From the IMG/VR virus record IMGVR_UViG_3300030419_006876, positions 1 to 25,533 of that record: DNA of 25,533 nucleotides. One strand, given 5' to 3'. Below the pieces are notes generated by a model that worked only from the letters and a program-made list of their open reading frames with translations, had not been told where the DNA came from and ran no database searches. The position numbers and the translations under genes were made by a program. Shown here piece by piece: positions 1-24,520 of the stretch (positions are counted from its first letter, which is position 1; each line of letters opens with the position of its first letter). The DNA comes from a virus.

Positions 1-1395
1 AAGTTAAGCTTTAATCTTTCACTAGTCCATGCTAATGCTAAGGCTCTTGGTGGAGATAAAAGAATATATGGTGCAAGAATATATTATAAGAAAAGTGGTG
101 ATGTAGACAGATATAGACTTGTTGAGCTTCATCTAAGAGATGGTGTTAAAAGTTCTACAAGCTCTAGTTATATACCTTGGAATGAAAGTAGTGATGTTTA
201 CAATTTATCTAGTGACATAGTATTTGAAGATGCTCCTGATATATATACTTATGAAAGTGATAAAGATGGTGTAATTGCAGAAGAGTTTTATGGGGAATCT
301 AAGGATGAAATAGCTTCTACTACTGCTGGACCAGTTGGACATGATATAAAATTTGGAACAGCTACAGTTGGTCAAAATGGACATGTGTATCTTGGGAATA
401 TAAGTTTTAATGGATCTGAGAGACCTGATGCTATGATGTATTCTCTTAAGAACTCTGGATCAGCATTTCCAATGTTCAACCTTGTTGATTCTCCTTCCTC
501 AGATGGTAGTAAAATTATTAAATTAGAGTCATTTCAGGATACAGTATTGCAGTTTAAAGAAAACTCTTTATATACTTTTAATATTTCAAATCCTCAAGCT
601 CCTTACGCAGAAGCAGTATTTAAGGATTGTGGAATATATAATCCCTGCCAAGTATTTAAAACTTCATTTGGAGTTATATTTGCTAATGATAATGGTTGCT
701 TTATATATGATGGAAGAAGTGTAACATCTTTAACTAATGGTAAATTTGCTAGAACTGATTGGGCTCTTACTAGTGGTTCTGGCATAGGAGTTGATGGAGC
801 AGCAGTTCCATGTGTAGGTTATGATCCACGTTCACAAAATATAATTGTTTTAAAGAATATTGGAGATAATTCTACAGATACCGGAGCTTGGATTTTTAAT
901 ATGCCAACTCAATCATGGACTGAAGGTTTAGACATGATAACAAATGGTAATGAGAATAGACATACTAATTTTATTATAACATCAGATGGTTATTTATCTA
1001 TTAAGCGTGATGATTCTCAATCTATCTTTGACTATACTCAAGGCAATAATGCACAAAAGTTTATCTTTCAAACAAAAGATATGGACTTCGGATTACCATC
1101 TCAAACTAAGAAATTATTTAAAGTATATATTACATATAAAGGGAATGCATCTAATCTAACTGCGACATGGAGATATAATGGTGAGACAACAGACAGAGGG
1201 TTTACTGCTACAAATTGGGCTGATAACTCTGATATAGATGACTTTGAGGTAGCTACACTCGTTCCTGATAGTTTAGCTGAATCTAAAGGTTGGAAAAGTA
1301 TGTCAATATATATTACAAGTGCATCAAATACTGTTGCTACGGATTTTGAGATAAATGATATTGCAATTTTATATAGAGCGAGACCAATAAAATAA
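1..1395 (+). CDS. Phage tail/virion structural protein, 5' truncated by window edge
   Basis: The frame is open from base 1 to the TAA at 1393-1395, so the true start lies upstream; about 464 codons are visible. The protein is rich in Ser, Asn, Gly and aromatic residues with short beta-strand-like stretches. A segment around 600-760 reads FGVIFANDNGCFIYDG, a pattern I associate with beta-propeller-like tail or DNA-stabilisation proteins of podovirus-like phages (gp10-like); this is recognition of style, not a proven match. There is no signal peptide or membrane segment in the visible part. It overlaps the following fibre gene by one base (TAATG), so the two are probably translationally coupled. 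A GTG at 385 could be read as a start, but the coding pattern continues unbroken upstream of it. A tail structural role is likely; the exact component is uncertain. Confidence 0.72.
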   Translation, partial: KLSFNLSLVHANAKALGGDKRIYGARIYYKKSGDVDRYRLVELHLRDGVKSSTSSSYIPWNESSDVYNLSSDIVFEDAPDIYTYESDKDGVIAEEFYGESKDEIASTTAGPVGHDIKFGTATVGQNGHVYLGNISFNGSERPDAMMYSLKNSGSAFPMFNLVDSPSSDGSKIIKLESFQDTVLQFKENSLYTFNISNPQAPYAEAVFKDCGIYNPCQVFKTSFGVIFANDNGCFIYDGRSVTSLTNGKFARTDWALTSGSGIGVDGAAVPCVGYDPRSQNIIVLKNIGDNSTDTGAWIFNMPTQSWTEGLDMITNGNENRHTNFIITSDGYLSIKRDDSQSIFDYTQGNNAQKFIFQTKDMDFGLPSQTKKLFKVYITYKGNASNLTATWRYNGETTDRGFTATNWADNSDIDDFEVATLVPDSLAESKGWKSMSIYITSASNTVATDFEINDIAILYRARPIK

Positions 1396-2942
1396 TGGCA
1401 TTAGATAAGTCAGGATCATTACAATGGGGAAAAGGTACTAGACCAACATCTAGGAGTGAGATTGGTACACCTAATCCAAGTGAAGGTAGTAATGGAGATA
1501 TTCAGCTAAGAAATACTAATATTGGTGCAAGGTTATTTGGTAAGGTTGGTGGCAAGTGGCTATCTATTAACTTATCTAGTACAAAAGAAATGAGACTTGG
1601 TATTAATGATAGAAAGCAAATATTTATTAATAGTAATGGATTTAGATTTGGTGCTAATTCTGCTACTGAAACTGCACTTAGAATAGCAAATGATGGTTCA
1701 TTGTCTATAGGTACTAGTACAACTAAAAAAGTTAATATTTCATCAGCAGGCGTTTTAACTGTCGCAGATGTTCTTCTTACTGGTAAAATTGGATTAACTG
1801 GCACGGATAATAATATTTGTATTGGTGTTAACAATTCTGATGCTGGTGATGATAATGTGTCTATTGGCACTGATGCTGGCAGTTCTCTTGAAAGTGGTGG
1901 AGACTTAAATATATCTATTGGGACAAAGGCAGGAGAAGACATTACCACTGGCGATCAGAATACTTTAATTGGTTATAATGCTGGAAAAGAGATTTCAACA
2001 CAAGGCTTTAGTACATTTGTGGGTACTTATGCTGGGAACGTAGCAACTGGGGCTGGCAATACTGGTTTTGGTACAGGTGCTGGTCAAGTAATTACAGATG
2101 GCTATTGGAATACTTATATTGGGTTTAATACAAGAGGTTCTGGGACTAGCGTTGTAAATGAAGTAGTTCTTGCAGGTGGATCAAGTGGAACTGCTGGTAA
2201 TGGTAGCAATACAGTTACGCTTGGTACTGATTCTGCTACTGATGTATATATGGGGGAAAATGGAAGAGCTAATGTCCATGGAAAAGTCATGGCTCTTTAT
2301 GATATGGGATACACTGGTGCTGATGGAGGAACTTCTCCAACTAATATAACTGATTACATGCAAATTTATGGAAGTATTTATAATAAACTATATCTTGTAA
2401 ATGGTGAAGGCAATCATTATGAATTAGAGGCTGTAAGTAGTCCAAGTGGAAGACATACTCTATCTGGATTACAAGATATAAGGTATAATCATAGTGGTGA
2501 TAATACAGTTATTACACAATTTTACAGGCGTGAAGGTGGGACATCTGCAAGTCATGCATTTAAAATTCCAGCACATGCTATTATAACGAGGGTTGTTGCA
2601 GTTGTACAAACTGCTAGCAATCAATCTACTCATAAGGTTAATATAATGATGTCAGCTACCCATGGTACTGCTGCAGATTCATCTATATCTAGTGGAACTG
2701 AGCTTTTAGGTGCTGGATCTGCTAACGCTGATACGATTAGTACTGATGTAGCTTTAGGTGGAACTTCAGAAGATATTGATCTAAATGGAGATCATAAAAA
2801 AGTTTATATGTGTAATACATTGGTAAGAAATGGAGGTAGTGATCAGTATATATATATATGTAATGCTGGTACTGGAAATGGAACTACAAACTCAACAGCA
2901 GGTACTTTATCTATATTGATAGAATACTATGGAATGGATTAA
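1395..2942 (+). CDS. Tail fibre / appendage protein with glycine-rich beta repeats
   Basis: 515 aa. It starts at the ATG sharing a base with the previous stop and has no separate Shine-Dalgarno site, so it is probably translated by coupling. Residues 1-50 form a polar N-terminus containing SNGDIQLRNTNIGARLF. Residues about 138-247 hold a series of units built on IGxxAGxxITxGxxNxxIG, the type of repeat seen in trimeric phage fibres and adhesin heads. Then comes a segment containing SNTVTLGTDSATDVYMGENG, of a kind common in phage fibre or appendage proteins. The C-terminal ~150 residues contain FKIPAHAIITRVVAVVQ followed by a beta-rich Ser/Thr/Gly region, probably the outer domain that contacts the host. 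Role inferred: host recognition or particle surface. Repeat and composition are visible; receptor-binding is inferred. Confidence 0.75.
   Translation: MALDKSGSLQWGKGTRPTSRSEIGTPNPSEGSNGDIQLRNTNIGARLFGKVGGKWLSINLSSTKEMRLGINDRKQIFINSNGFRFGANSATETALRIANDGSLSIGTSTTKKVNISSAGVLTVADVLLTGKIGLTGTDNNICIGVNNSDAGDDNVSIGTDAGSSLESGGDLNISIGTKAGEDITTGDQNTLIGYNAGKEISTQGFSTFVGTYAGNVATGAGNTGFGTGAGQVITDGYWNTYIGFNTRGSGTSVVNEVVLAGGSSGTAGNGSNTVTLGTDSATDVYMGENGRANVHGKVMALYDMGYTGADGGTSPTNITDYMQIYGSIYNKLYLVNGEGNHYELEAVSSPSGRHTLSGLQDIRYNHSGDNTVITQFYRREGGTSASHAFKIPAHAIITRVVAVVQTASNQSTHKVNIMMSATHGTAADSSISSGTELLGAGSANADTISTDVALGGTSEDIDLNGDHKKVYMCNTLVRNGGSDQYIYICNAGTGNGTTNSTAGTLSILIEYYGMD
1806..2135 (+). repeat. Degenerate tandem repeat coding for fibre beta units
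   Basis: About five to six imperfect protein units of roughly 20-23 residues with the core IGxxAGxxIxxGxxN, for example IGTKAGEDITTGDQN, IGYNAGKEISTQGFS and FGTGAGQVITDGYWN. The DNA copies have diverged, so the repeat is clear in protein and weak in nucleotides. Such arrays usually fold as stacked beta layers in a trimer, and copy number can change by recombination. Confidence 0.7.
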
Positions 2943-5846: not shown

Positions 5847-8033
5847 ATGGCTCAAGACATGTGGAGTTTATTTAATAGTGAATTAGCAAAAGCTGAGAGA
5901 AGAGAAGGCTCAGAGCCTGACTATTGGGATCATATGCTTAAAGTAAGAGAGGCTAAACAAAGAGCTGACTTGTATACGGATCAAGACCTAAAAGAAAGAA
6001 ATGTATCTTTGACAAATCTAATAGATGAAATTGATACAATAAGTGGATTAGATAATTTAACTAAAAATGAGTTAAATACTTATGAAAATGATGCTTATAG
6101 TCTTGGGAAAGGATCAAATATTGTTTCCCATAAGACAATGCAAGATAAAATTAACGACAGACGTAACGCAATAGTGAAATATAATGGAGCTATGGATCAA
6201 TTTGAAAGCTTTAGGAAATCACCAACATATCTCAATGAGGTAGATGAATGGATTAATCTTGATTCAGCGTATGACAAAGTAAATGCAAGACTCAAAGCTG
6301 ATGGGAAAAAGCAATATGGCTATCCAATAGAATACATAAAAGATCAGTTTGATGAAATAACTAGAATTGAGCAGGCTATGAGAAGTGGCTTTGAATTTGA
6401 TCAGCAGGGAAATATAACAAAAAATAATTTTAAATCTATTTATGATGATAATGATATGTATATGGAGTTACAGGAACATAAAAAAAGACTTAATATTGCC
6501 TTAACGAGTTTAGCTGATAATAAAATTAATGCAGAAGAAGCACAAGCAATTATAATGGCGAAGCCCGAAGAATATGAAACAATGAGAAAAGATGCAAAAG
6601 ATAATGCCAAAACTGCTTATAAAACAAATAATGCTCAAGCTTTAAAATATGAATACCTTAAGGCTTCTGTAAAAAAAGCTGAAGAAAATGGTACTCCTTT
6701 AACTACTGATTTGTTAAAGCAAGGAGCACTTGAGGAAAGCTTTGATTCAGCCAATACTGAGACTGAACTTTCAGGTTTAGCTTTGATGGGTATGAACAAT
6801 AATTATAAAGGTGTTTATGAATTTCTAGATGATAAACAAGAACTATATACAGGAAGAGCAAGACAAAATAGTGACACATACTATGAATGGGCTGGAACAA
6901 GATTATATTATCCTGATACTCAGATTGTTGACCCAGGTAGCCATATATTAAAAGTAAAATCTGGAGAGGAAAATAAAAATCTTATTCTAGAGAATATTCC
7001 TGAACTTTCAGGACTTCCCGATCCTGACAAGCCTGTTGAAGTAGATGATGAAGAAGAGATGGACTTTGAGCCAGCTGACCCATTGGCAAAGGTTAAAAAA
7101 GATGATCCTGACGATCCTAGAGCTTCAAGAAATAACAATCCTGGAAATCTAAAATTTAATCAGCAGATAAAATCTACTGGGAAAGATGATGATGGATTTG
7201 CTAAATTTGGTACGGCAGATGATGGTTGGAATGCATTGTATGCTCAAATTGACGGAGCAAAGAGAGGAACTACACCAAATTATGTAAGAGATGATTATAC
7301 ATTATCAGAGTTTATCCATAAATATGCACCACCAGAAAATGAACAAGGCGAAGTAATTAATGATACTGAGACATATCTTTCAAATTTAGAAAATTGGCTA
7401 GACGTTGATGGTAGCACAAAATTAAAAGATATTAATACAAAGCAACTTGCAAATGCTATTGCAAGGCAAGAAGGTTACACAGGAGATTTTCCAGAATCCG
7501 GAGTTCCTGCAAAAACAAAACTTGGTGTAAAGGGAAAGATGTTAACTTATCAAGAAGGAGAACAAAAAGGAAGAGAAAAGGGAGACGTTGTAACACGTAC
7601 TCCAGGAGCATACTGGCCAGTGTTTAAAAGGCATCAAGAGAATTTAAGACAAATTGCTGTAGAAAAATATAATATAAAAGAAAACAAAGCTAAATATAAA
7701 AATATACGATCTTTTGTTGAGAAAAAATTTGACGAATTTCTAAAACAAAGAGGACTGCATGGAAAAGGATATAGCAAAGGTGATTATATATATTTTTTCC
7801 CAACCGATGATAAATATGGTTATCGTGAATTTAAAGATACAGTCTGGAAAGGAACAACTAAACCTAAAGGAGAAGGGATTATTAATAAAATCAAGGGATG
7901 GGGAGTAAAGACTAAGGGTCTTCAAAAGCCAATACTTGATAAATATGATTATGAAGGAGGCAAGATCACCGGTGCATATGCTGATTTTGCACGTTTGTTT
8001 GATGAGTTTAGAGAATTTCTGCATACAGTTTAA
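5847..8033 (+). CDS. Virion protein with lysozyme/transglycosylase-like NNNPGN domain
   Basis: 728 aa. Residues 1-400 are charged and mostly helical with many Lys/Glu/Asn and no recognised domain. After an acidic linker (about 390-410, VDDEEEMDFE) comes RNNNPGNLKF at about 428-437, then GFAKFGTADDGWNAL and YTLSEFIHKYAPPENE. That order matches the lytic domain of virion muralytic proteins of the PRD1 P5/NNNPGN type: conserved N-N-N-P-G-N, an aromatic-Gly segment, then a helix with KYAP and an E/N-rich loop. Its role would be local cutting of peptidoglycan during DNA entry. The C-terminal 160 residues are basic and unassigned. It lies just before the giant protein in an ejection-like operon, so delivery with the DNA is inferred. 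The domain call is good; the exact bond cleaved cannot be stated. Confidence 0.72.
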   Translation: MAQDMWSLFNSELAKAERREGSEPDYWDHMLKVREAKQRADLYTDQDLKERNVSLTNLIDEIDTISGLDNLTKNELNTYENDAYSLGKGSNIVSHKTMQDKINDRRNAIVKYNGAMDQFESFRKSPTYLNEVDEWINLDSAYDKVNARLKADGKKQYGYPIEYIKDQFDEITRIEQAMRSGFEFDQQGNITKNNFKSIYDDNDMYMELQEHKKRLNIALTSLADNKINAEEAQAIIMAKPEEYETMRKDAKDNAKTAYKTNNAQALKYEYLKASVKKAEENGTPLTTDLLKQGALEESFDSANTETELSGLALMGMNNNYKGVYEFLDDKQELYTGRARQNSDTYYEWAGTRLYYPDTQIVDPGSHILKVKSGEENKNLILENIPELSGLPDPDKPVEVDDEEEMDFEPADPLAKVKKDDPDDPRASRNNNPGNLKFNQQIKSTGKDDDGFAKFGTADDGWNALYAQIDGAKRGTTPNYVRDDYTLSEFIHKYAPPENEQGEVINDTETYLSNLENWLDVDGSTKLKDINTKQLANAIARQEGYTGDFPESGVPAKTKLGVKGKMLTYQEGEQKGREKGDVVTRTPGAYWPVFKRHQENLRQIAVEKYNIKENKAKYKNIRSFVEKKFDEFLKQRGLHGKGYSKGDYIYFFPTDDKYGYREFKDTVWKGTTKPKGEGIINKIKGWGVKTKGLQKPILDKYDYEGGKITGAYADFARLFDEFREFLHTV

Positions 8034-8053: not shown

Positions 8054-11000
8054 ATGAAAGCAAAATACGGACAAGTTGATATAGAATCATTAGTAAAGGA
8101 AGCAAGGGAGAAATACCCAAGGAGATATCAGGGTCTTTCAGATAGGCATATTTATCTTACACATAAAGAAGCATATCCAGATGCAGCATGGCCAGAATTT
8201 TCCCCTTACGATATTAATGATGAAATAAATCCAAATAAAGAAACTGTTGAAGCTAAGGATAAAGACTACTCTCCTAGTACATTTGAGAAAATAGCATTAG
8301 CTGGGCTTCCTGAGGTTTGGGCTGATCAGCATGATTGGGCAAAAGAGGCTTATAATAATTCTATAGCTGGAATGACCTATACACTTTTACATGGCAAGCC
8401 TAAATATAAGATAGAAGATTATGATCGTGAGCATAAAATATGGGAAGATGCTTTAGGCTTCTTTACAGGTATAGTTTCTGCTCCAGACCTTGGATTATTT
8501 CTTGGTAGTGGTGGTGTTGGTGGAGTTGCATCAAAAAGATTACTAGCATCTAATGTTGCACAAAGATGGTTGAAAAATGGTATTGCAGCTAATACATCAT
8601 TAAAAGTACTTGATAAAAAGTTTGGCGTAGAGTCTATGGTTCGTGCTTCTCTTGATTCCGGTATAAGCTTAGGTATGTATGGAGCTGCTGGTGGAGCAAC
8701 GGCAGAGGCTACAAGACAAGTTTCAGAGGGATACGAGGATTTAGATTATAGTAAAATAGTTGGTGAAGGTGTCAAGGCTGGTGGAAGTGGAGCTATTATA
8801 GGTGCTGCTGCTGGTGGTGTTACTAAAGGTGTTATGGCAAATAAATTTGCAAGAGCTGCAAGAGCTGCGAAAAAAGGAAATAATACATTTAACAATGTTG
8901 CTACAAGAATTTTAACTAATCCTGCGTCACAGGTAGGGGCTGAAGCTGGCTTGTTCACTACTGGTCAATTAACCGAAGCATCATTGCTTCATGGTCAAGA
9001 TTTAACAACTGAAGATATTTATAAAGGTCTTTTTAATAATTTAGCTATTATTGGTGGTTTAAGACTTGCAACTAAGCCACTTAGAATTGGTCAAAATGAT
9101 ATGTCTAGGTATGAAAAAAGACGTTTAGATTATCTCAATAAGCATGTAGAAAAATTTGATAAGCATTTAAATGAAATATCAAAACAAATTAAAGGTGCTG
9201 GGATAGAAGTACCAAGAGAGCTTATAGATGAACAAGTAAAATTAAAACTTGAGACAAATGAGCAAAAGGAAGCTTTTGATTTTATTAAGTCACAAGAGAA
9301 AAGTTTACATCAAAAATTAGGAAGTAAAAACTTTAAAAACCTTAAAAAGAAAGATCAAATTGAAGCATTAAAACAATATTTACTTCTAAATAATTTCTAT
9401 ACAGATATGTATAGTAAGCTAAAAAAGAATCCAGATTTAGCATATGAGATATTTGAAAAAACTACTTTAAAGACAAAAGATGCTGAGGGTAAGCCAATCT
9501 GGAAAAGAGGGTTTAAACCAAAAAGACCTATGACTGATGCTGAAAAGAAGGCTGAGATGAAAAGGATTGACTCTCATTTGGAAACTCATGGCTTATTGAG
9601 TGATCTAAATGGCAAGCTTGCATTAAATGATAAAAAAGGTGCTAATAAAGTATTAACAAAATTAATTAAAAAAGGCTATATAGACAAGTCTGACGTAGCA
9701 TCTATTAAGGGTAAGCCTGATAGTGGGTATGGTGTTGCTCTAGAAGGAGATGTGTATAAATGGTATAATGCTAAGGGTGAACGTGGAGAAGTTAAAATTT
9801 CAAATTTCAAAGATGACCCTGTTTTTGGCTCTGCAAAGGAACAGGCTTATAGTGAAGCTGCAGCAAAGGCTAATCCATTTGGCTCAGATAAGCCTAAAGG
9901 TATCGATACAGCTAAGGTTAAAAAATCAGATTCAAAGAAAGCTGAGGTCGAGCCCAAATTAGAAGATATATATGATGCTAATAAGCTTTTAACGATAGCT
10001 GAGGGACAAGGAGTTCCAAAGGAGACTATTAATAGGCTTAAAGGCAAAGGGATTGAAACAAAAGAAAACCCTGAGGGGTATGATCTTGCAGGGTTAAGAG
10101 ATGCAATTAACATTCAAAAATCTGCTCCTTCTCAGAAGCTTTTAGAATTAGCAGAACCATTAATTTCAGGTGATAAAAAGCCTAATGGTATTTCTCAAGA
10201 CGCTTGGGTAAAAAATACAGCACTTAAAAATAACAAACGATTTTTAGAAGTAAAAGACAGAGATAATCGAAAAACTATACTCTTTGCTGCTTCTAGGTAT
10301 TTAGAGGGGAACGTAAGGAGTAAAGCTATAAATTCTGCTATTAAATTTGCACAGTTTTTAGAAAAAAATCACCCATTTGCAAAATTATCAAGTTCAGGGG
10401 CAGAGCTAGAAGTCTTATACAAAAATTATATTGATTATATTCGTAATAATTTAAAAAAAGGTAAAGGTGAAACACATATTAAGGGATATATCAATTCTGA
10501 GAATAGTGGACTTAGAGCATTTTATAAAAACACACATAAATTCCTACAAGATAATATAAATCCTATTCCATCAGGAAAAGAGAAAGTACCAACTGCAGTA
10601 AGAAAGAGTATCTTTGTTGGAGAATATCTTAAAGAAGAAACACGTAATCCTGAGTTGGAAAAATTAGCTAACAAGTATTCTCCTTCCGGTAAAGGAACTG
10701 ATGTTATTATTTCAAATAAAGGAAAACCTTACTCACAAAAAGCTAGGCAGGGTAAAGAAGTAGTTATTGAAAAAGATATGATGTATGATCTACTTACTCT
10801 TGCTAGGGTTTTAAGACCACGTAGCAATGAATTTACAAAAACTAAAATACGAAATATTAATCATACTGAGGGCTTTATATCTTTAAAAAGACATAAAACT
10901 GAAGCATTAGATATTGTTAAAATAGATAAGTCAATTTCAGAATATCTTAAAGCTCATCAGAAAAAACATAATTTAAAAGATAACGATTATATTTTCTTTG

Positions 11001-14000
11001 CAATAGATAAAGGAACAGGCAAAAAAACATTAATTAGGGATGCACATATTCAAATTTTACTTGCAAAAGCATTAGAAGGAAGTGGTGTTAAGCTTGGTCT
11101 TTATAAACCAACCGGAAAGGGGAAGGAAATAAGCTATTTAGATATGAAGGGGGCTATTCCAGATGATTGGGGTGGGAAAAAACTTCCCTTGTCTCGTTTA
11201 TTTAGAACATTTTTAGAAGCAACTGGGAGTGAAAAACGTCTAGAGGGAGAAGTAGCAACTCTTCCTCCACAGCACAATTTAGGACATAGTAAAGGTACAA
11301 CAGGAATAATTGGTGAAAGTTATAATCTCAAACAAAAGGGTGGAGGTAGAGAAGCAGGCACTCTTGCAAAGGAAGAGTCTAGGATTGATCGTGCACAAAG
11401 GCTAGTAGAGGAAAACCCTGAGTATATTAAGCTTCGTGAGCAAAAGAAAACTGCAAAAGGTGATAAAAGAATTGAAATTAGCAAGGCTATGGATAAAATG
11501 GAGCAGGATGTACTTGCGACTATTCCTGTTGTATCAAAAAAAGGCAAGGGTAGAGAGACAATGCTTGCTGAAAAAGAAAATGTACCAGCTCCAAAAGAAT
11601 GGTATGAAAAAGTTGTAGAACCTTGGCTCAAGAAAAAATATCCAGAATATCACAAGAAGTTAAAATTTGTAGATGAGTTGCCACCTAATGTTGATGGCAA
11701 AACTGTTCTTGCTGATCTTATGGGTCACACTATTAGAGTTGTTCAAGGCAAAGCTCCTAAGGATGCTATACCACATGAGATTATGCACTCTGTGTTTCAT
11801 GCAATTAAAGCCATTGGAAGTCCAAGGGCAAGACAATTATTAAAACAAGTTACTAGAGATTTTGGTATAAAAGGTAGTGATGAAGGTGCTGCAATTAAAG
11901 TTGGCAAGATATTAACTGGTTCTCTTGAAAAAGGACTTATTCCTAAAGTAAAGAGATGGTCAAGGAAAATTAATATATTCTTTAGAGATTTCTTTGGTTC
12001 TCCTTTAAGAAGTAAGGATGCTGCATTCTTGCTGAGTGAAATAGGGCTTAAAAGAGATTATGGTGGCATAGGAGGTGCTGTAAAGGTTACACCTCAAGAT
12101 CTTAAAAGAGAAACAATGATTGATCCTAAGGACATGGGAAATCCTAATGATCTTCGTTTAGCAGTTAGATCTAATTTCCAAGTAGCTGCAAAGAACTTTA
12201 AGGGACAAGAGAAACAATTACGAGATTATTTGCTTAAAAGTATAGACCCTGAGGGAAGAATGCCATCAAGTTTTAAGAAGCTTTTATATTCTGTTCCTGA
12301 AAACATGGATACAGCTACAAAGCAAAAATATTTTAATTATCTTTTAAAATTCAATGAGGCTCTTGAATCTGCTGATCTTCAAAAGTTTCTACAGCATAAG
12401 AAGAGCTTAAAGTTTTTTGATACAATTAAAAAAATTGAACATCAAACTGAAGGCGATAGAGTATTAAGAAATATAACTGTAGAAAAAGGCAAGCAGATGC
12501 TTTTAGATTTAGGTGTTAAAGATGGTGAAATATGGAATGCTACACAAAAGCAATTAAATGAGTATCGTAAAAGACTTGAGGCGATTGATTTAGCTCCGGT
12601 TGAAAGCACCGGTTTACAAGCAGCAGGAGCAGAACTAGCTCCAATACAAACAAAATATAAAGCTTTGCTTGAATGGGGTGGTGCTAAAATACTTCCTGTA
12701 ATAGACGTTATTGATGCTCTTGGTTTGAAACAAATCTCTCACAAATTAAGAAAACATGTTGCTATACAATCTACACATTATGGAGATGGCTTGCAAAAAG
12801 CTCATTATGATATGAGTAAAGGATGGACAATGGAATTGCCAATGAAAAATGGTGGTGTAAATAAGGTTGCTATAGAAGGTATAGATAGATGGACAGGAAA
12901 AAGAATATTAACCGGTATTACTAAGCTTGATGAATTAAAAGATTTATTGTCTATTGCAGATAAAGATGGTGGTATATATTTAGAAAATATTAAATGGTTA
13001 AAAAGTCATGGCTCTTCTAAAGTTGCAAAAGATTCAAAGCCCTTATCTGCTCAAGAAATAAAGTTATCAAATGATTTAATTAAATTTTTTGAAAATGCTA
13101 TTCTTATGGACAAGTGGAATAAGACTATTAAAAAAGATGGAAAAAGTGGAGATGCATTAAATGCTGTTGATAAGACTGCTGGTGAATTTAAATATATTAA
13201 TCTTAACACGCCTGAGGGTAGGATGCTTGCTAGGTATGCACATCCTACTGAAGGTATACCAGCATACTTTGAAAAAGCTTATAAAAAATCATTAAAGCAA
13301 AATTTAAATGAAGCTCAATATGAATCTGTAATGAAAAGTGGTGACGTTAAATGGATTAAGAATGGTGTATATATTCATCGTTCTGCTTCTGATGCTTTTA
13401 GGAAAATAGTAGATTTAAATAGTGTAGCTTTTGATAGAATTGTTAATAATCAATCTACTGCTATAGCTAGAAAATTAGCAAAAGATCGTTATAAAGTTAT
13501 GAACCCAAGTACAGAACAAATAAATGAATTTCTTGGTATAGCTCGTGGTATTGCTATTGGTAATGTACATGATGCAAACTTCTTTAGTATTAATAAGTTT
13601 TCAACAAAGTTTTTAATGAAAAGACACCCTAGACTTGATTTATTTACAAAAGATGATAATGGCAATTGGATTAGAACATATAATACATCATATAATAATA
13701 CTGTGAAAAAATATGCTCTTGGTATGTCTCATTATATTGCCGGTATAGAAACCTTTCCTGAGTTTACTAAAGTACAGGGATCTAATCTTCCAGTGCCACG
13801 TTTTGAAATCGAAAGCTTTAAAAAGCATACTGGAGAGTGGTCTGATTGGGTTAGCAGTGCTATTAATGACCATATTGGAGTTGGGCAGAAATCACCATTT
13901 AACCTTGCTACATCTGCTTTACAAAATTATTCTAATATTTTAGCTAAAACACAGCTTTCTAATCCATTATCTGGAGTTAAGAATGCATTCCTTGCTACTA

Positions 14001-15541
14001 CTCAAGCTGCATGGGCATATGATGTAGCAGATATTGGAAGAGGTATAGCTGAGACATTTAAAGAGGAGAGTAGAATATATGTAACGAGGACAGGTGCAAA
14101 GCATATGGGAACAGCTCATTACGAGGGTGGTAAACTTTCAAAAGCCTTAGATGCCACATTTTTTAGATGGGGACTTATGAAGCCAACTGAGAATTGGGCT
14201 AGAAATTTTTCAGTTCTTACTGGTAGGATCGACCAAAGAAAACATATAGACTTAATGAGAAATAATCCTAAAGGTAGTAAGCTGTATAACAAGGGTAAAA
14301 ATAGGTTGGAAAGATTTTATGAATTAGATGCTGCTGATATAGATTTGCTATACAAGTTTGGATATGGTCATGGTAAAAAACTTGAGGGTCACAAGCTTGC
14401 ACCTCAGAATAAATATGAAAGATCAAAGTTAGAAAGAAGGCTCGAAGTTGCACATCAGAATATGAACCATATGGCTCACATAAAAACACAAGGAACTTCA
14501 ATATCATTGTTTATGCCTAAAGGGGCTGAAGGAAAGTTTATCAAGCCTATGACTCTCTTTAAAAGAATGGCATATGCTGCAAGTACCAATACAATTAAAA
14601 ATGCAAAAGAGGCAAAGCAGTCTGGCAATTATATGAAACTTGCTACCGGTACTATGGCTACTTATTTTACAGGTCAAGCATTATTTGGACTATATTCTCA
14701 ACTTTTAGGAACTGATATGCCAAAAGAAAATTCTTCATGGTGGAAACAATTTTGGACAAATATGTGGAGAGGTGAGTTTTTGGGAATTATGTCTGAGTTT
14801 TTAAATCCATTTGGGGCTTCTGTAACTACAAGCATCTATCCAGCCATGTTTAGCAATGCTGGGGTACTTGCTCGTAATCTTTATGATGTAGCATGGAATG
14901 ACAGTAAGTTTGTCTGGGGTAAAGATCAAGCTGTTGATTCTTATTTAAAGCAAACATTAGGTATATATAATGCTGCTCAAAAAGTTATTCATAGGCGTAA
15001 CAATCCATATGCTAGAAAAAGTATAAAATTTGACAATCTCTATACTGACTTTGAAAAAGAAATATTTGATAAAAATAAGAGCATAATTTCTGATCCTAAC
15101 ATAAAAACTAAGTATGTTAAAGATTTAAAAAATGCATTTTCTAAAGGTAGTGCAAAAGAATTTGCCAAAGCTTTTATTCTTACATACTATGTTACAGCAA
15201 GTGAATACTATAATAAAGGATTTAAGAAAAGTGGAATCAGACATAATACTTTAGATGAAGCATTTAAAAAAGCAGATTCCCAGATGAAAAGATATATGAC
15301 TCTTCTTAACCCAACACATAAGCCATCAAAGGATTCTGAAAGATCTACAAAAGCTAAATATATCGCTTGGTTAAATTGGCTTGGAAAAGATAAAGATAAA
15401 GGATACCTAAATGAACTTGCTATTCTTGGTAATGAGTATGAGAGAAGAATGAATGAATTTAAAGCATTATTACCATATTATATTAGAAAGAACAATCTAA
15501 CAGATTTAGCAAAAGAGTTTAAATGGCTACATAAAATTTAG
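8054..15541 (+). CDS. Giant 2495-aa polyvalent/internal virion protein with recombinase-like and metallopeptidase-like domains
   Basis: The only possible start region is the ATG at 8054, since an in-frame TAG lies just upstream; its ribosome site is weak (AGGA about 15 bases away). Layout: residues 1-70, a short helical head; 145-260, several Gly/Ala-rich hydrophobic stretches (e.g. GGSGAIIGAAAGGVTKGV) likely to enter membranes; 360-720, charged helices; about 735-1095, a tyrosine-recombinase-like core; about 1183-1335, a zincin-like domain with HEIMH at 1241-1245; 1380-1500, helical; 1500-2300, long alpha/beta regions of the kind found in large phage polyvalent proteins; a hydrophobic segment near 2196-2220; a basic C-terminus. 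It is probably packaged and ejected, like T7 gp16 but larger. It ends tail-to-tail with the nuclease gene, the stop codons overlapping. Confidence 0.75.
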   Translation: MKAKYGQVDIESLVKEAREKYPRRYQGLSDRHIYLTHKEAYPDAAWPEFSPYDINDEINPNKETVEAKDKDYSPSTFEKIALAGLPEVWADQHDWAKEAYNNSIAGMTYTLLHGKPKYKIEDYDREHKIWEDALGFFTGIVSAPDLGLFLGSGGVGGVASKRLLASNVAQRWLKNGIAANTSLKVLDKKFGVESMVRASLDSGISLGMYGAAGGATAEATRQVSEGYEDLDYSKIVGEGVKAGGSGAIIGAAAGGVTKGVMANKFARAARAAKKGNNTFNNVATRILTNPASQVGAEAGLFTTGQLTEASLLHGQDLTTEDIYKGLFNNLAIIGGLRLATKPLRIGQNDMSRYEKRRLDYLNKHVEKFDKHLNEISKQIKGAGIEVPRELIDEQVKLKLETNEQKEAFDFIKSQEKSLHQKLGSKNFKNLKKKDQIEALKQYLLLNNFYTDMYSKLKKNPDLAYEIFEKTTLKTKDAEGKPIWKRGFKPKRPMTDAEKKAEMKRIDSHLETHGLLSDLNGKLALNDKKGANKVLTKLIKKGYIDKSDVASIKGKPDSGYGVALEGDVYKWYNAKGERGEVKISNFKDDPVFGSAKEQAYSEAAAKANPFGSDKPKGIDTAKVKKSDSKKAEVEPKLEDIYDANKLLTIAEGQGVPKETINRLKGKGIETKENPEGYDLAGLRDAINIQKSAPSQKLLELAEPLISGDKKPNGISQDAWVKNTALKNNKRFLEVKDRDNRKTILFAASRYLEGNVRSKAINSAIKFAQFLEKNHPFAKLSSSGAELEVLYKNYIDYIRNNLKKGKGETHIKGYINSENSGLRAFYKNTHKFLQDNINPIPSGKEKVPTAVRKSIFVGEYLKEETRNPELEKLANKYSPSGKGTDVIISNKGKPYSQKARQGKEVVIEKDMMYDLLTLARVLRPRSNEFTKTKIRNINHTEGFISLKRHKTEALDIVKIDKSISEYLKAHQKKHNLKDNDYIFFAIDKGTGKKTLIRDAHIQILLAKALEGSGVKLGLYKPTGKGKEISYLDMKGAIPDDWGGKKLPLSRLFRTFLEATGSEKRLEGEVATLPPQHNLGHSKGTTGIIGESYNLKQKGGGREAGTLAKEESRIDRAQRLVEENPEYIKLREQKKTAKGDKRIEISKAMDKMEQDVLATIPVVSKKGKGRETMLAEKENVPAPKEWYEKVVEPWLKKKYPEYHKKLKFVDELPPNVDGKTVLADLMGHTIRVVQGKAPKDAIPHEIMHSVFHAIKAIGSPRARQLLKQVTRDFGIKGSDEGAAIKVGKILTGSLEKGLIPKVKRWSRKINIFFRDFFGSPLRSKDAAFLLSEIGLKRDYGGIGGAVKVTPQDLKRETMIDPKDMGNPNDLRLAVRSNFQVAAKNFKGQEKQLRDYLLKSIDPEGRMPSSFKKLLYSVPENMDTATKQKYFNYLLKFNEALESADLQKFLQHKKSLKFFDTIKKIEHQTEGDRVLRNITVEKGKQMLLDLGVKDGEIWNATQKQLNEYRKRLEAIDLAPVESTGLQAAGAELAPIQTKYKALLEWGGAKILPVIDVIDALGLKQISHKLRKHVAIQSTHYGDGLQKAHYDMSKGWTMELPMKNGGVNKVAIEGIDRWTGKRILTGITKLDELKDLLSIADKDGGIYLENIKWLKSHGSSKVAKDSKPLSAQEIKLSNDLIKFFENAILMDKWNKTIKKDGKSGDALNAVDKTAGEFKYINLNTPEGRMLARYAHPTEGIPAYFEKAYKKSLKQNLNEAQYESVMKSGDVKWIKNGVYIHRSASDAFRKIVDLNSVAFDRIVNNQSTAIARKLAKDRYKVMNPSTEQINEFLGIARGIAIGNVHDANFFSINKFSTKFLMKRHPRLDLFTKDDNGNWIRTYNTSYNNTVKKYALGMSHYIAGIETFPEFTKVQGSNLPVPRFEIESFKKHTGEWSDWVSSAINDHIGVGQKSPFNLATSALQNYSNILAKTQLSNPLSGVKNAFLATTQAAWAYDVADIGRGIAETFKEESRIYVTRTGAKHMGTAHYEGGKLSKALDATFFRWGLMKPTENWARNFSVLTGRIDQRKHIDLMRNNPKGSKLYNKGKNRLERFYELDAADIDLLYKFGYGHGKKLEGHKLAPQNKYERSKLERRLEVAHQNMNHMAHIKTQGTSISLFMPKGAEGKFIKPMTLFKRMAYAASTNTIKNAKEAKQSGNYMKLATGTMATYFTGQALFGLYSQLLGTDMPKENSSWWKQFWTNMWRGEFLGIMSEFLNPFGASVTTSIYPAMFSNAGVLARNLYDVAWNDSKFVWGKDQAVDSYLKQTLGIYNAAQKVIHRRNNPYARKSIKFDNLYTDFEKEIFDKNKSIISDPNIKTKYVKDLKNAFSKGSAKEFAKAFILTYYVTASEYYNKGFKKSGIRHNTLDEAFKKADSQMKRYMTLLNPTHKPSKDSERSTKAKYIAWLNWLGKDKDKGYLNELAILGNEYERRMNEFKALLPYYIRKNNLTDLAKEFKWLHKI
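10256..11338 (+). other. Tyrosine-recombinase-like domain inside the giant virion protein (residues ~735-1095)
   Basis: The segment has both halves of a tyrosine recombinase. The first is a helical core-binding-like part (about 740-870) with SRYLEG..INSAIKFAQFLEK and a later YIDYIRNNL...SGLRAFYKNTHKFL. The second is a catalytic part: LRPRSNEF with R923 aligning to the first catalytic Arg; ISLKRHKTEALDIVKI with K948 in the beta-hairpin position; LSRLFRTF with R1051 near the second Arg, where the usual His of HxxR is not His; LGHSKGTT with H1078; and Y1090, twelve residues after that His (nine is usual). The motifs and their order are visible; the fold and any activity are inferred. The altered HxxR box and the longer His-Tyr spacing could mean a divergent or inactive enzyme. 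Confidence 0.6.
11600..12060 (+). other. Zincin-like metallopeptidase domain in the giant virion protein (residues ~1183-1335)
   Basis: Residues 1240-1245 read PHEIMH, a full HExxH zinc motif (H1241, E1242, H1245) on a predicted helix, preceded by a beta-like stretch GHTIRVVQG. Further on, DEGAA places E1277 32 residues after the second His in an ExxA context, the usual third ligand of gluzincins. HExxH alone occurs by chance, but the preceding strand, the hydrophobic pattern around it and the ExxA make a real domain likely. Such peptidase modules are known in polyvalent phage proteins and may process the protein itself or attack host proteins after ejection (inference). Confidence 0.62.
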
Positions 15542-19337: not shown

Positions 19338-19536
19338 ACTCGTCTGTAACCTTCTTGATGAACTTATTGAAGTTTTCTGTATCTCCCTTATGATCTAAAT
19401 ATAAGGAGAATACTTGCTTAGTTTCAAGAACTTCTTGTCTTATCTGTTGTATATGTTGATATAACAGATGGTCATTAGAATTAAGTCCAGTCAGTGTTTC
19501 GGTTATCTCTCTATTGGTTAATTTCTTTTTCTTCAA
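19300..19536 (-). CDS. Hypothetical 78-aa helical protein
   Basis: The longest frame begins at TTG (19536), with only a weak purine-rich region before it, so the start is uncertain. The product is polar and helical (HLLYQHIQQIRQEVLETKQVFSLYL, then FNKFIKKVTDEFEKKQ), most likely a small coiled coil. It overlaps the zinc-ribbon gene upstream by 26 bases and the 128-aa gene downstream by 38 bases. Function unknown. Confidence 0.5.
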   Translation of the reverse strand: MKKKKLTNREITETLTGLNSNDHLLYQHIQQIRQEVLETKQVFSLYLDHKGDTENFNKFIKKVTDEFEKKQSKDSGGA

Positions 19537-21843: not shown

Positions 21844-22389
21844 TTACGTGTTTGTGTAATGTTCCATAGCTTGATGGAAATTACCTTGGTTTATTTGTCC
21901 CATGCTTATCTGATGTTTAACTGTATCAGCCAAGCCTTCCTTCTTATTGTCTTTTATTACATCTAGTAATTGTTTTTCTTGTGCTGCTGTTAGTGGTGGA
22001 CTTGGTGGTAAGTCTTCACCAGCAAATATATGAATACCTAATCCATGTAATGCTATTGCCTTAGCTAAACATCTTTGAATACTTGTGTTTATCTGAAATG
22101 CATTTGGCACAGATATGGGTTTGTTAGAATGGTCAAGAACTGGATGGATTTGAGTCATCGTCACCTCATCTACCATCACACTTACCTTGACAAAGTAACC
22201 ACATTCAGTTTTCATATATGGTGCACCATCGTACTCGTGTATAGTCCACGTAGCACTTGGATGTCTTTTCTTTAATTCCCTTACAGCATATGCCCAACTA
22301 AGATAACTAAACCTACCCTTCTTCTCCATATGTTTAGTAACATCTACTTGGTCAAGCCTTGTAAAGTAATTTGTTTTTTTAGTTGCCAT
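21844..22389 (-). CDS. Single-strand annealing protein, DUF1071 / Sak-type
   Basis: 181 aa from ATG 22389, with AGGAG six bases upstream. Residues 27-37 FSYLSWAYAVR, then WTIHEYDGAPYMKTECGYFVKVSV, HPVLDHSNKPI and FQINTSIQRCLAKAIALHGLG, GEDLP match the DUF1071 family, a Rad52-like (Sak3-type) group of phage single-strand annealing proteins. The C-terminal 45 residues are polar and helical and probably contact partners. It is encoded together with a Cas4-like exonuclease upstream and an SSB-like protein downstream, the standard phage recombination trio: resect, anneal, protect. Family call strong; activity inferred from homologues. Confidence 0.85.
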   Translation of the reverse strand: MATKKTNYFTRLDQVDVTKHMEKKGRFSYLSWAYAVRELKKRHPSATWTIHEYDGAPYMKTECGYFVKVSVMVDEVTMTQIHPVLDHSNKPISVPNAFQINTSIQRCLAKAIALHGLGIHIFAGEDLPPSPPLTAAQEKQLLDVIKDNKKEGLADTVKHQISMGQINQGNFHQAMEHYTNT

Positions 22390-22811: not shown

Positions 22812-23573
22812 TTATTTAAAACTTGGTGGCTTACAGTGATCCTTAAACTGACAATAGTTACAACACCAAGCATAGGCTGGTGACGTACCAAATTGAAACC
22901 CAGGAAGTCCTTTGCTATGCTCTTCGTTAATAGCCATCCAATATCTCTTTGCTTGTTTAACATAATCAAGTGGGACATCTACACGTCTCATAGCAGATGT
23001 ATCCTTGTTGTAGTATATGATAGCTATCTCATCTAACCTACCATGAGTTCTTTCCACAGCAATACCATAAGTACCAATCTGCAAAAAATGATTTCTATTT
23101 ACTTGCTTGTTCGTAAAGGCTCTTGAAAACTTTTGTTTCCAACTAAAGCTAGCAGTTGTCTTAATGTCAAATAATCCTATGTTATCACTACCTTTTGATA
23201 CAACATCATAGTATCCTCTAACATTAAATTCTTTAAGTTCAATTTCACCTTCGATGTCAAACGTGACATCAGTATGTTCTACAATATAATCTTTGTTAAT
23301 ATTATTATTTATATTATCTTTTTTAATATTATTATAATATATTAAGGCGTTCTGAATATCTTCGTGAAGAACAGTACCTAATGCCATCTTTCTCATGGCT
23401 GATTTGTTAACTGGATTTGTAGGTTCAGCTTTCTCAACAGACTCAAAATAGAGCTTGCGAGAACAAAAGCCAGCACCACTTGCATGATACCAGCTTTCCT
23501 TCCCTTCATATCTATCTCTTCTGTTCTGCTCGTTTTTATAGAGCAAATATTCGTGATAAATCTTTTCAAACAT
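22812..23573 (-). CDS. Cas4-like / RecB-family exonuclease with iron-sulphur cysteines
   Basis: 253 aa from ATG 23573, sharing one base with the upstream stop (TAATG). Catalytic features: H70 in GTVLHE, D123 in RGYYDVV, D136-I-K138 in GLFDIKTT, and the Q165 motif LQIGTYGIA; together these form the RecB/Cas4 PD-(D/E)XK site. Cysteines C37 (GFCSRKLYF), C238, C241 and C247 (CCNYCQFKDHC) match the four-cysteine iron-sulphur cluster of the Cas4/AddB type. An Asn/Lys-rich low-complexity insertion (about 81-95) is encoded by a very AT-rich stretch. It would resect DNA ends for the annealing protein two genes downstream. No CRISPR array or other cas gene is present, so this is a phage recombination enzyme. 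Confidence 0.85.
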   Translation of the reverse strand: MFEKIYHEYLLYKNEQNRRDRYEGKESWYHASGAGFCSRKLYFESVEKAEPTNPVNKSAMRKMALGTVLHEDIQNALIYYNNIKKDNINNNINKDYIVEHTDVTFDIEGEIELKEFNVRGYYDVVSKGSDNIGLFDIKTTASFSWKQKFSRAFTNKQVNRNHFLQIGTYGIAVERTHGRLDEIAIIYYNKDTSAMRRVDVPLDYVKQAKRYWMAINEEHSKGLPGFQFGTSPAYAWCCNYCQFKDHCKPPSFK

Positions 23574-23857: not shown

Positions 23858-24520
23858 CTATTTTTTAGAGACACCTTTTATGTTAGATAACCATCCAATA
23901 GTTAAGGGTTTTCTATTTACAACACAATCTCTTATAATATCAGCATCTACAAAAGAATGAATAGCAGTTTTTAATTTATACGCAGTATCCACATTAAACA
24001 TCCAATATAGACATTCTCTTTTTGCCTTTCTTGTATCATCTTTAATGTATCCGGTATAATGAGCTATTGCAATTAAATACGTAGTTGGAGATTTTCCTTC
24101 TGCTACTGTATGCCTAATAGCATTTCTTCCACCTATAGCTTCTAGTGACTTGATAGCCTTAAGTGTTCTTACAGATATTTCTTTAGCTCCATTTAGGTAT
24201 CTTTCTGTTTCTTGTGCTGCTGTTAGTGGCATTTGATCCTGATGGTCAATAACAAACATTTTATCATAATTAGTTTTTGTCACCTTATGATGTATTATTG
24301 CAGGTATATATTCTATACCTAGATCCTTAAATGCATTTAACCTTCTATGTCCTGCGACTAGTGATTTTTCGTCAGCTGCAATAAGAATAGGATTTAAAAG
24401 TCCTATCTCTCTTATGCTTTCCTTAAGAGCATTAAAAGATCTATTTGTCCTATCTGTTCTTATAGATGGATTATGTTTATTTTCAATCACCTCTGATACT
24501 TTAACTTGTTTGTATTGCAT
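23858..24520 (-). CDS. ParB-like nuclease-domain protein
   Basis: 220 aa from ATG 24520 (TAATG overlap with the upstream stop, GGAG eight bases before). Residues 5-70 match the ParB N-terminal domain: VSEVIENKHNPSI, LKESIREIGLLNPILIA, and the hallmark AGHRRLNAF with G57-H58-R59-R60, followed by IEYIPAIIHH. The ParB N-domain binds and hydrolyses nucleotide triphosphate in partition proteins and acts as a nuclease in some phage proteins. The rest is helical and lacks a clear ParB-type helix-turn-helix, and no ParA gene is adjacent. It is therefore more likely a phage regulator or DNA-modifying accessory than a partition protein. It lies just upstream of the boxed control region. Confidence 0.82.
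   Translation of the reverse strand: MQYKQVKVSEVIENKHNPSIRTDRTNRSFNALKESIREIGLLNPILIAADEKSLVAGHRRLNAFKDLGIEYIPAIIHHKVTKTNYDKMFVIDHQDQMPLTAAQETERYLNGAKEISVRTLKAIKSLEAIGGRNAIRHTVAEGKSPTTYLIAIAHYTGYIKDDTRKAKRECLYWMFNVDTAYKLKTAIHSFVDADIIRDCVVNRKPLTIGWLSNIKGVSKK

Follow-up and report, generated by a model that had tools for sequence, protein, structure and literature searches.

The virus record IMGVR_UViG_3300030419_006876 comprises 25,533 bases with a guanine-cytosine (GC) content of 34%, and the window analysed here is this whole record; because the record is only of this length, the genome of the uncultured phage that it represents is probably incomplete. Its giant gene, P0001, encodes a protein of 2495 amino acids (aa) whose reading frame is uninterrupted throughout, and residues ~738-1091 of this protein are securely assigned, on sequence comparison and structural modelling, to a diverged member of the tyrosine recombinase superfamily. 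Tyrosine recombinases are normally separate enzymes of 300-400 aa that are made after entry, and they normally integrate, excise or resolve phage genomes. The domain in P0001 is laid out as a helical core-binding part (residues ~747-860) and a catalytic part (~890-1091), with a long insert between the strands and the second catalytic arginine. An earlier interpretation made from the letters of the window (the sequence-only reading) had named five active-site residues, all of which are read at their respective positions in the translation of the 2495-aa open reading frame (ORF). The gene, the domain and these residues are located as follows.

8054..15541, + strand: giant gene P0001 (2495 aa), an ORF that ends the structural operon and encodes a probable internal virion or ejected protein
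10265..11326, + strand: tyrosine recombinase domain, residues 738-1091, from leave-one-out profile, hhalign, PDB profile search, AlphaFold2 (AF2) and fold search
10820..10831, + strand: box I, an RxxE motif with R923 (catalytic Arg I) and E926, which align with R148 and E151 of XerD
10895..10897, + strand: K948, the beta-hairpin lysine, aligned with K172 of XerD in a loosely conserved column
11204..11206, + strand: R1051, catalytic Arg II, aligned with R247 of XerD; the preceding His of HxxR is missing
11285..11287, + strand: H1078 of the LGH motif, nearly invariant and aligned with the LGH of XerD
11321..11323, + strand: Y1090, the predicted nucleophile, aligned with Y279 of XerD

Homology, fold and active-site conservation of the domain

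Sequence searches of Pfam, PHROG and the PDB return no direct match for this region with P0001 or its domain, the window protein on its own scores below every Pfam cut-off, and tblastn with the giant protein and the domain against phage and plasmid records yields no real match; the window taken by itself supports no more than a reading of motifs. The homology link passes via domains in related giant proteins (L033, L010, L005, L030, L050 and L043), among which L033 connects with the window domain at 8e-6 (phmmer). A 23-sequence profile built without the window recovers residues 738-1091 of P0001 at 48.7 bits (E 9e-13 for 20,000 sequences), with R923, R1051, H1078 and Y1090 correctly aligned, whereas 200 shuffled versions and the reversed sequence of P0001 score no higher than 7.9 bits; a six-sequence subgroup profile that likewise lacks the window scores P0001 at 36.6 bits. 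When the profile is restricted to the 17 homologues outside the window's subgroup, the window domain goes undetected and is therefore highly diverged. The absence of a direct library match for the window protein could suggest a chance resemblance of motifs unrelated to recombinases; the leave-one-out score, the conservation, and the profile and fold searches rule this explanation out, leaving it a practically negligible probability.

Several relatives fall within curated families. The L003 homologue passes the curated cut-off of PF00589 (Phage_integrase), matching at 2.6e-13, and L001 matches a SAM-like core-binding family below the cut-off. Among the mid-regions of relatives (n = 36), five match PF00589 and some others PF13495 or PF02899, while four match the PHROG integrase family phrog_216; the L003 domain alone finds XerA (0.01) and XerD (0.06) as its best, though weak, PDB sequence matches. 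Alignment A7, built by MAFFT with no structural hint, comprises the window and 22 homologues that are 12-20% identical to it. Its hhalign comparison with a canonical set, A6 (XerC, XerD, FimB and FimE of E. coli, lambda Int, P2 Int, Cre, and three Gram-positive phage or satellite integrases), reaches 95.6% across 148 columns with the boxes in register, as opposed to 0.1% for a control with the C-terminal alignment of the giant protein. In an hmmsearch of 177,635 PDB sequences, the A7 profile has XerA (4e-11), an archaeal Xer (3e-10), XerD (7e-4) and IntI4 (9e-3) as its top matches.

Modelling by AF2 from the single sequence is of no use, with a predicted local distance difference test score (pLDDT) of 38. 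The model based on A7 has a mean pLDDT of 59 and a predicted template modelling score (pTM) of 0.50, with pLDDT values of ~70-90 across the first half of the catalytic part. Using this model, the first 35 Foldseek matches in the PDB are all tyrosine recombinases (best E 3e-4), with TM-scores that are low (~0.2-0.5) because the model is only partly confident; matches in a viral library are mainly phage integrases, together with nudivirus VLF-1 proteins. The modelled fold is that of a tyrosine recombinase, with a tentative detailed geometry at the C-terminal end. Type IB topoisomerase was considered as well and is disfavoured, as both the profile search and the fold search of the PDB lead to Xer, Cre, integron, and transposon or phage integrases, with no TopIB among the matches listed. 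Conservation, hhalign, the PDB profile search, and AF2 with Foldseek agree on the family and the preceding core-binding region that the sequence-only reading had proposed, and the two outcomes that it had named as refuting it, an unlike fold and free variation of the five residues in homologues, were not borne out, save that K948 varies.

Members of A7 and its sister alignment A8 were picked among relatives whose motifs had already been recognised, with fragment ends trimmed with the Tyr in view and shortened recombinase versions excluded; within the 23 sequences of A7 so composed, the sole invariant columns of the whole domain are R923, R1051 and Y1090 (R177, R305 and Y344 in the numbering of the window fragment), E926 is nearly invariant, and H1078 exceeds 90% in A8. 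Of the five residues, the two arginines and the tyrosine are thus kept and H1078 nearly so, whereas K948 varies. Two departures from the family pattern had also been noticed correctly: the His of the HxxR box is indeed absent in the window, and the His-Tyr spacing of 12 is three residues longer than the 9 of XerD (H270, Y279), relatives ranging from 9 to 14. HxxR is retained in L003, L041 and L042.

Relatives and cassette-like exchange

Pattern scans of viral contigs with the domain, the full protein or P0003 gave no relatives. With the DnaB helicase P0007 as query, 15 IMG/VR loci were obtained, most of them 65-76% identical in that gene, and wherever enough flank is available, a giant ORF 2.1-2.5 thousand codons long occupies the equivalent place. 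Homology of these ORFs to P0001 extends across its two termini and the peptidase region, at an identity of only ~25%. The conserved C-terminal region, used as a query in turn, added further relatives and brought the set to 57 non-redundant large ORFs, in many of which tyrosine recombinase motifs are recognisable mid-protein.

Between close relatives, the domain is exchanged like a cassette. In the pairs L003/L005 and L002/L009, the flanks are mostly 55-95% identical and the domain 12-27%, whereas L002 and L006 have a common cassette that is conserved at least as well as its flanks; the swapped-in versions are mostly still recognisable as members of the tyrosine recombinase superfamily. Such swapping would be typical of specificity modules, and it suggests that the target differs between close relatives, for instance a site on the host or a rival element, or one in the phage genome that evolves along with the enzyme.

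By reading, L025, L064, L071 and L072 contain no recombinase, and eight further relatives (L009, L026, L027, L031, L035, L040, L062 and L065) seem to be without box I. Since some relatives have shortened versions or none, the recombinase is dispensable to the lineage. The eight versions without box I seem to retain the end from Arg II to Tyr and may have decayed or taken on a regulatory role.

The giant protein and the proposed action of its recombinase

The context of the recombinase is provided by other regions of P0001 and by the genes upstream of it.

11774..11788, + strand: HEIMH (residues 1241-1245), a zinc-peptidase-like HExxH motif, from sequence and relatives
13670..15043, + strand: conserved C-terminal region, residues 1873-2330, common to all relatives used (alignments A1 and A5)
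5847..8033, + strand: P0002 (728 aa), with a lysozyme-like virion region (phrog_873, 8.9e-18)
1395..2942, + strand: P0005, tail-spike-like (phrog_4636, 5e-4)

The HEIMH motif lies ~150 residues C-terminal of Y1090, and HExxH occurs at the equivalent place in most recombinase carriers, so that in relatives the two almost always go together. The surrounding peptidase region (residues 1191-1335) is homologous in relatives, one of which is SprT-like (0.004), and the motif makes a processing peptidase possible. The giant proteins of L001, L004 and L012 are without an HExxH motif; in L012 (12454-19389, - strand), residues ~990-1070, near the expected peptidase place, read like a ParB/sulfiredoxin domain, with no Pfam match.

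Upstream of P0001, P0002 resembles head or structural proteins of phiV10 and SPN1S (tblastn). A 52.8-kilobase relative, G002, has portal, major head protein and tail fibre genes upstream of the giant gene, all on one strand, as well as a neighbour gene with a weak match to the internal virion protein phrog_511; from this gene order, the giant gene is the final gene of a podovirus-type structural operon. Podovirus internal virion or ejection proteins (T7 gp16-like) are similarly large, encoded after tail genes and accompanied by a muralytic domain in the set, and to our knowledge none carries a recombinase.

P0001 also resembles the polyvalent proteins of phages, exemplified by DdrB of phage P1 and the N4 virion RNA polymerase (Iyer et al. 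2017, PMC5512222), which are giant, multidomain, equipped with a putative metallopeptidase and encoded with late virion genes. It combines the recombinase and the HExxH region with conserved N- and C-terminal regions, and the portal, capsid and tail genes lie on the same strand in G002. The metallopeptidases of polyvalent proteins have been proposed to cut long chains into working units (PMC5512222). Pfam matched no known polyvalent domain in P0001; conversely, the polyvalent catalogue is without a tyrosine recombinase, and the words recombinase, integrase and XerC have no occurrence in its main text (PMC5512222). P0001 is probably packaged in the particle and ejected with the genome, and the ejected protein that the sequence-only reading had suspected draws its support from two sources, gene order and domain company.

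The preferred reading, held to be reasonably likely, is that the virion delivers a catalytically competent recombinase, whatever its target may be. The domain would be a true, diverged tyrosine recombinase within a polyvalent-type virion protein of a podovirus-like phage, and the giant protein would be packaged and then ejected together with the genome, whereupon the adjacent HExxH peptidase may release the recombinase part. By analogy with the chemistry of the family, Y1090, activated by R923, K948, R1051 and H1078, would form a covalent phosphotyrosine through which DNA is cut and rejoined at a specific site, and this would take place in the first minutes of infection, ahead of phage gene expression. 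Within this reading, the enzyme could either circularise or integrate the phage's own genome or act on the DNA of the host or of a rival.

A number of observations weigh against delivery of an active enzyme. The box II His is replaced in the window and in most relatives (xDxR), the K948 column is loose among relatives, and the AF2 model falls below a pLDDT of 50 in its last 50 residues; moreover, no recombination site was found, the lineage can dispense with the recombinase, and packaging is argued from gene order and domain company only. The first three of these, along with the changed His-Tyr spacing and the loss of box I or the entire domain in some relatives, would also suit a reused, non-catalytic DNA-binding fold that holds or guides DNA in the capsid or at ejection and whose recombinase residues are relics. 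Pure DNA binding, however, gives no reason for retaining a nucleophile amid near-total divergence, and no column of the domain other than those of Arg I, Arg II and Tyr is invariant among sequences that share only 12-20% identity with the window. An inert fold is considered unlikely on account of this retained nucleophile.

As a special case of the virion-delivered active enzyme, the domain could be an integrase or circularisation enzyme that the particle brings in for the phage's own DNA. PF00589 has seven matches in 30 related records, every one of them inside the giant frame, and the A7 profile finds matches in 21 of 31 related records, only within giant frames; most of the matching sequences had built A7, so that this search is informative in finding nothing elsewhere. 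Neither a stand-alone tyrosine recombinase (30-31 related records) nor a serine resolvase or recombinase was found in the related records, which are fragments or linear contigs. That no other recombinase was detected favours a role on the phage's own DNA, as does the family habit of integrating, excising or resolving phage genomes. On the other hand, a single pattern scan of genome contigs detected no host or prophage relative, no lysogeny genes are seen in the window, and no attachment site stands out: neither E. coli dif-like sites nor inverted repeats with 11-base-pair arms and a spacer of 5-9 base pairs exceed chance in the window (for the latter, 1 against 2.85 expected). An enzyme dedicated to the phage's own DNA is regarded as doubtful. 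The only inverted repeat of this kind is the following.

19442-19469: inverted repeat, 11-6-11, one mismatch, with Xer-site geometry

A more specific form of the preferred reading, which can be advanced only tentatively, is that a lineage without a stand-alone integrase delivers a cassette-swapped site-specific recombinase that would act on host or incoming DNA before phage expression, possibly at the Xer/dif machinery of the host. This target is entertained because the giant protein of a distant relative, L070 (4460-11572, + strand), holds an FtsK-gamma domain (residues 579-637, 1e-13) and an integrase SAM-like core-binding domain (residues 859-943, 8e-10), both above the Pfam cut-offs. L070 is a single case that possibly points to a link with the host Xer/FtsK machinery. 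FtsK-gamma as a general Xer link was rejected, being found in only one of 44 records.

The VLF-1 proteins among the fold matches raise a further alternative, namely that the domain helps to resolve or package genomes inside the producing cell and does not act after entry. Such a role has been proposed for baculovirus VLF-1, a structural, packaging-linked tyrosine recombinase (PMC11654684, PMC3649998). The VLF-1 of baculoviruses and nudiviruses shares with the P0001 domain its membership of the superfamily and is a virion component; unlike P0001, it is a separate insect-virus protein that is linked to the assembly of nucleocapsids and lies outside any ejected polyprotein. With its great length, its several domains, its peptidase motif and a gene that follows those for tail and muralytic proteins, P0001 has the look of an ejected protein, and cassette swapping is less expected of a housekeeping packaging function, which makes action in the producing cell rather improbable.

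What is new about P0001 is the carrier, the enzyme family itself being known. In its fold, RxxE motif, Arg II, LGH, Tyr and core-binding part, the domain is like known tyrosine recombinases (PF00589 with SAM-like PF13495/PF02899; XerA, XerD, IntI4), and it differs from them in lying within a 2495-aa structural-operon protein, in the missing box II His, in the longer His-Tyr spacing and in the long insert. No report of a tyrosine recombinase in a packaged, ejected or polyvalent phage protein was found among open-licence papers. If delivery of an active recombinase is true, it would represent a novel route by which a virus introduces such an enzyme into a cell, and DNA could be cut and joined at specific sites from the very start of infection, without transcription being required. 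It would also add a DNA-rearranging effector to the known ejected phage effectors, be a counterpart in bacterial viruses of baculovirus VLF-1, and supply diverse, swappable recombinase modules, the targets of which experiments could identify.

Early genes of the window

Past P0001, the coding strand reverses, and the genes there encode DnaB, a DNA methyltransferase and the following three proteins.

21844-22389, - strand: Sak-type single-strand annealing protein
22812-23573, - strand: PD-(D/E)XK nuclease
23858-24520, - strand: ParB_N domain protein (2.7e-10), in the early region

The ParB_N protein is encoded by a phage in which no partition system is visible, and the annealing protein and the nuclease form an ordinary phage homologous recombination pair.

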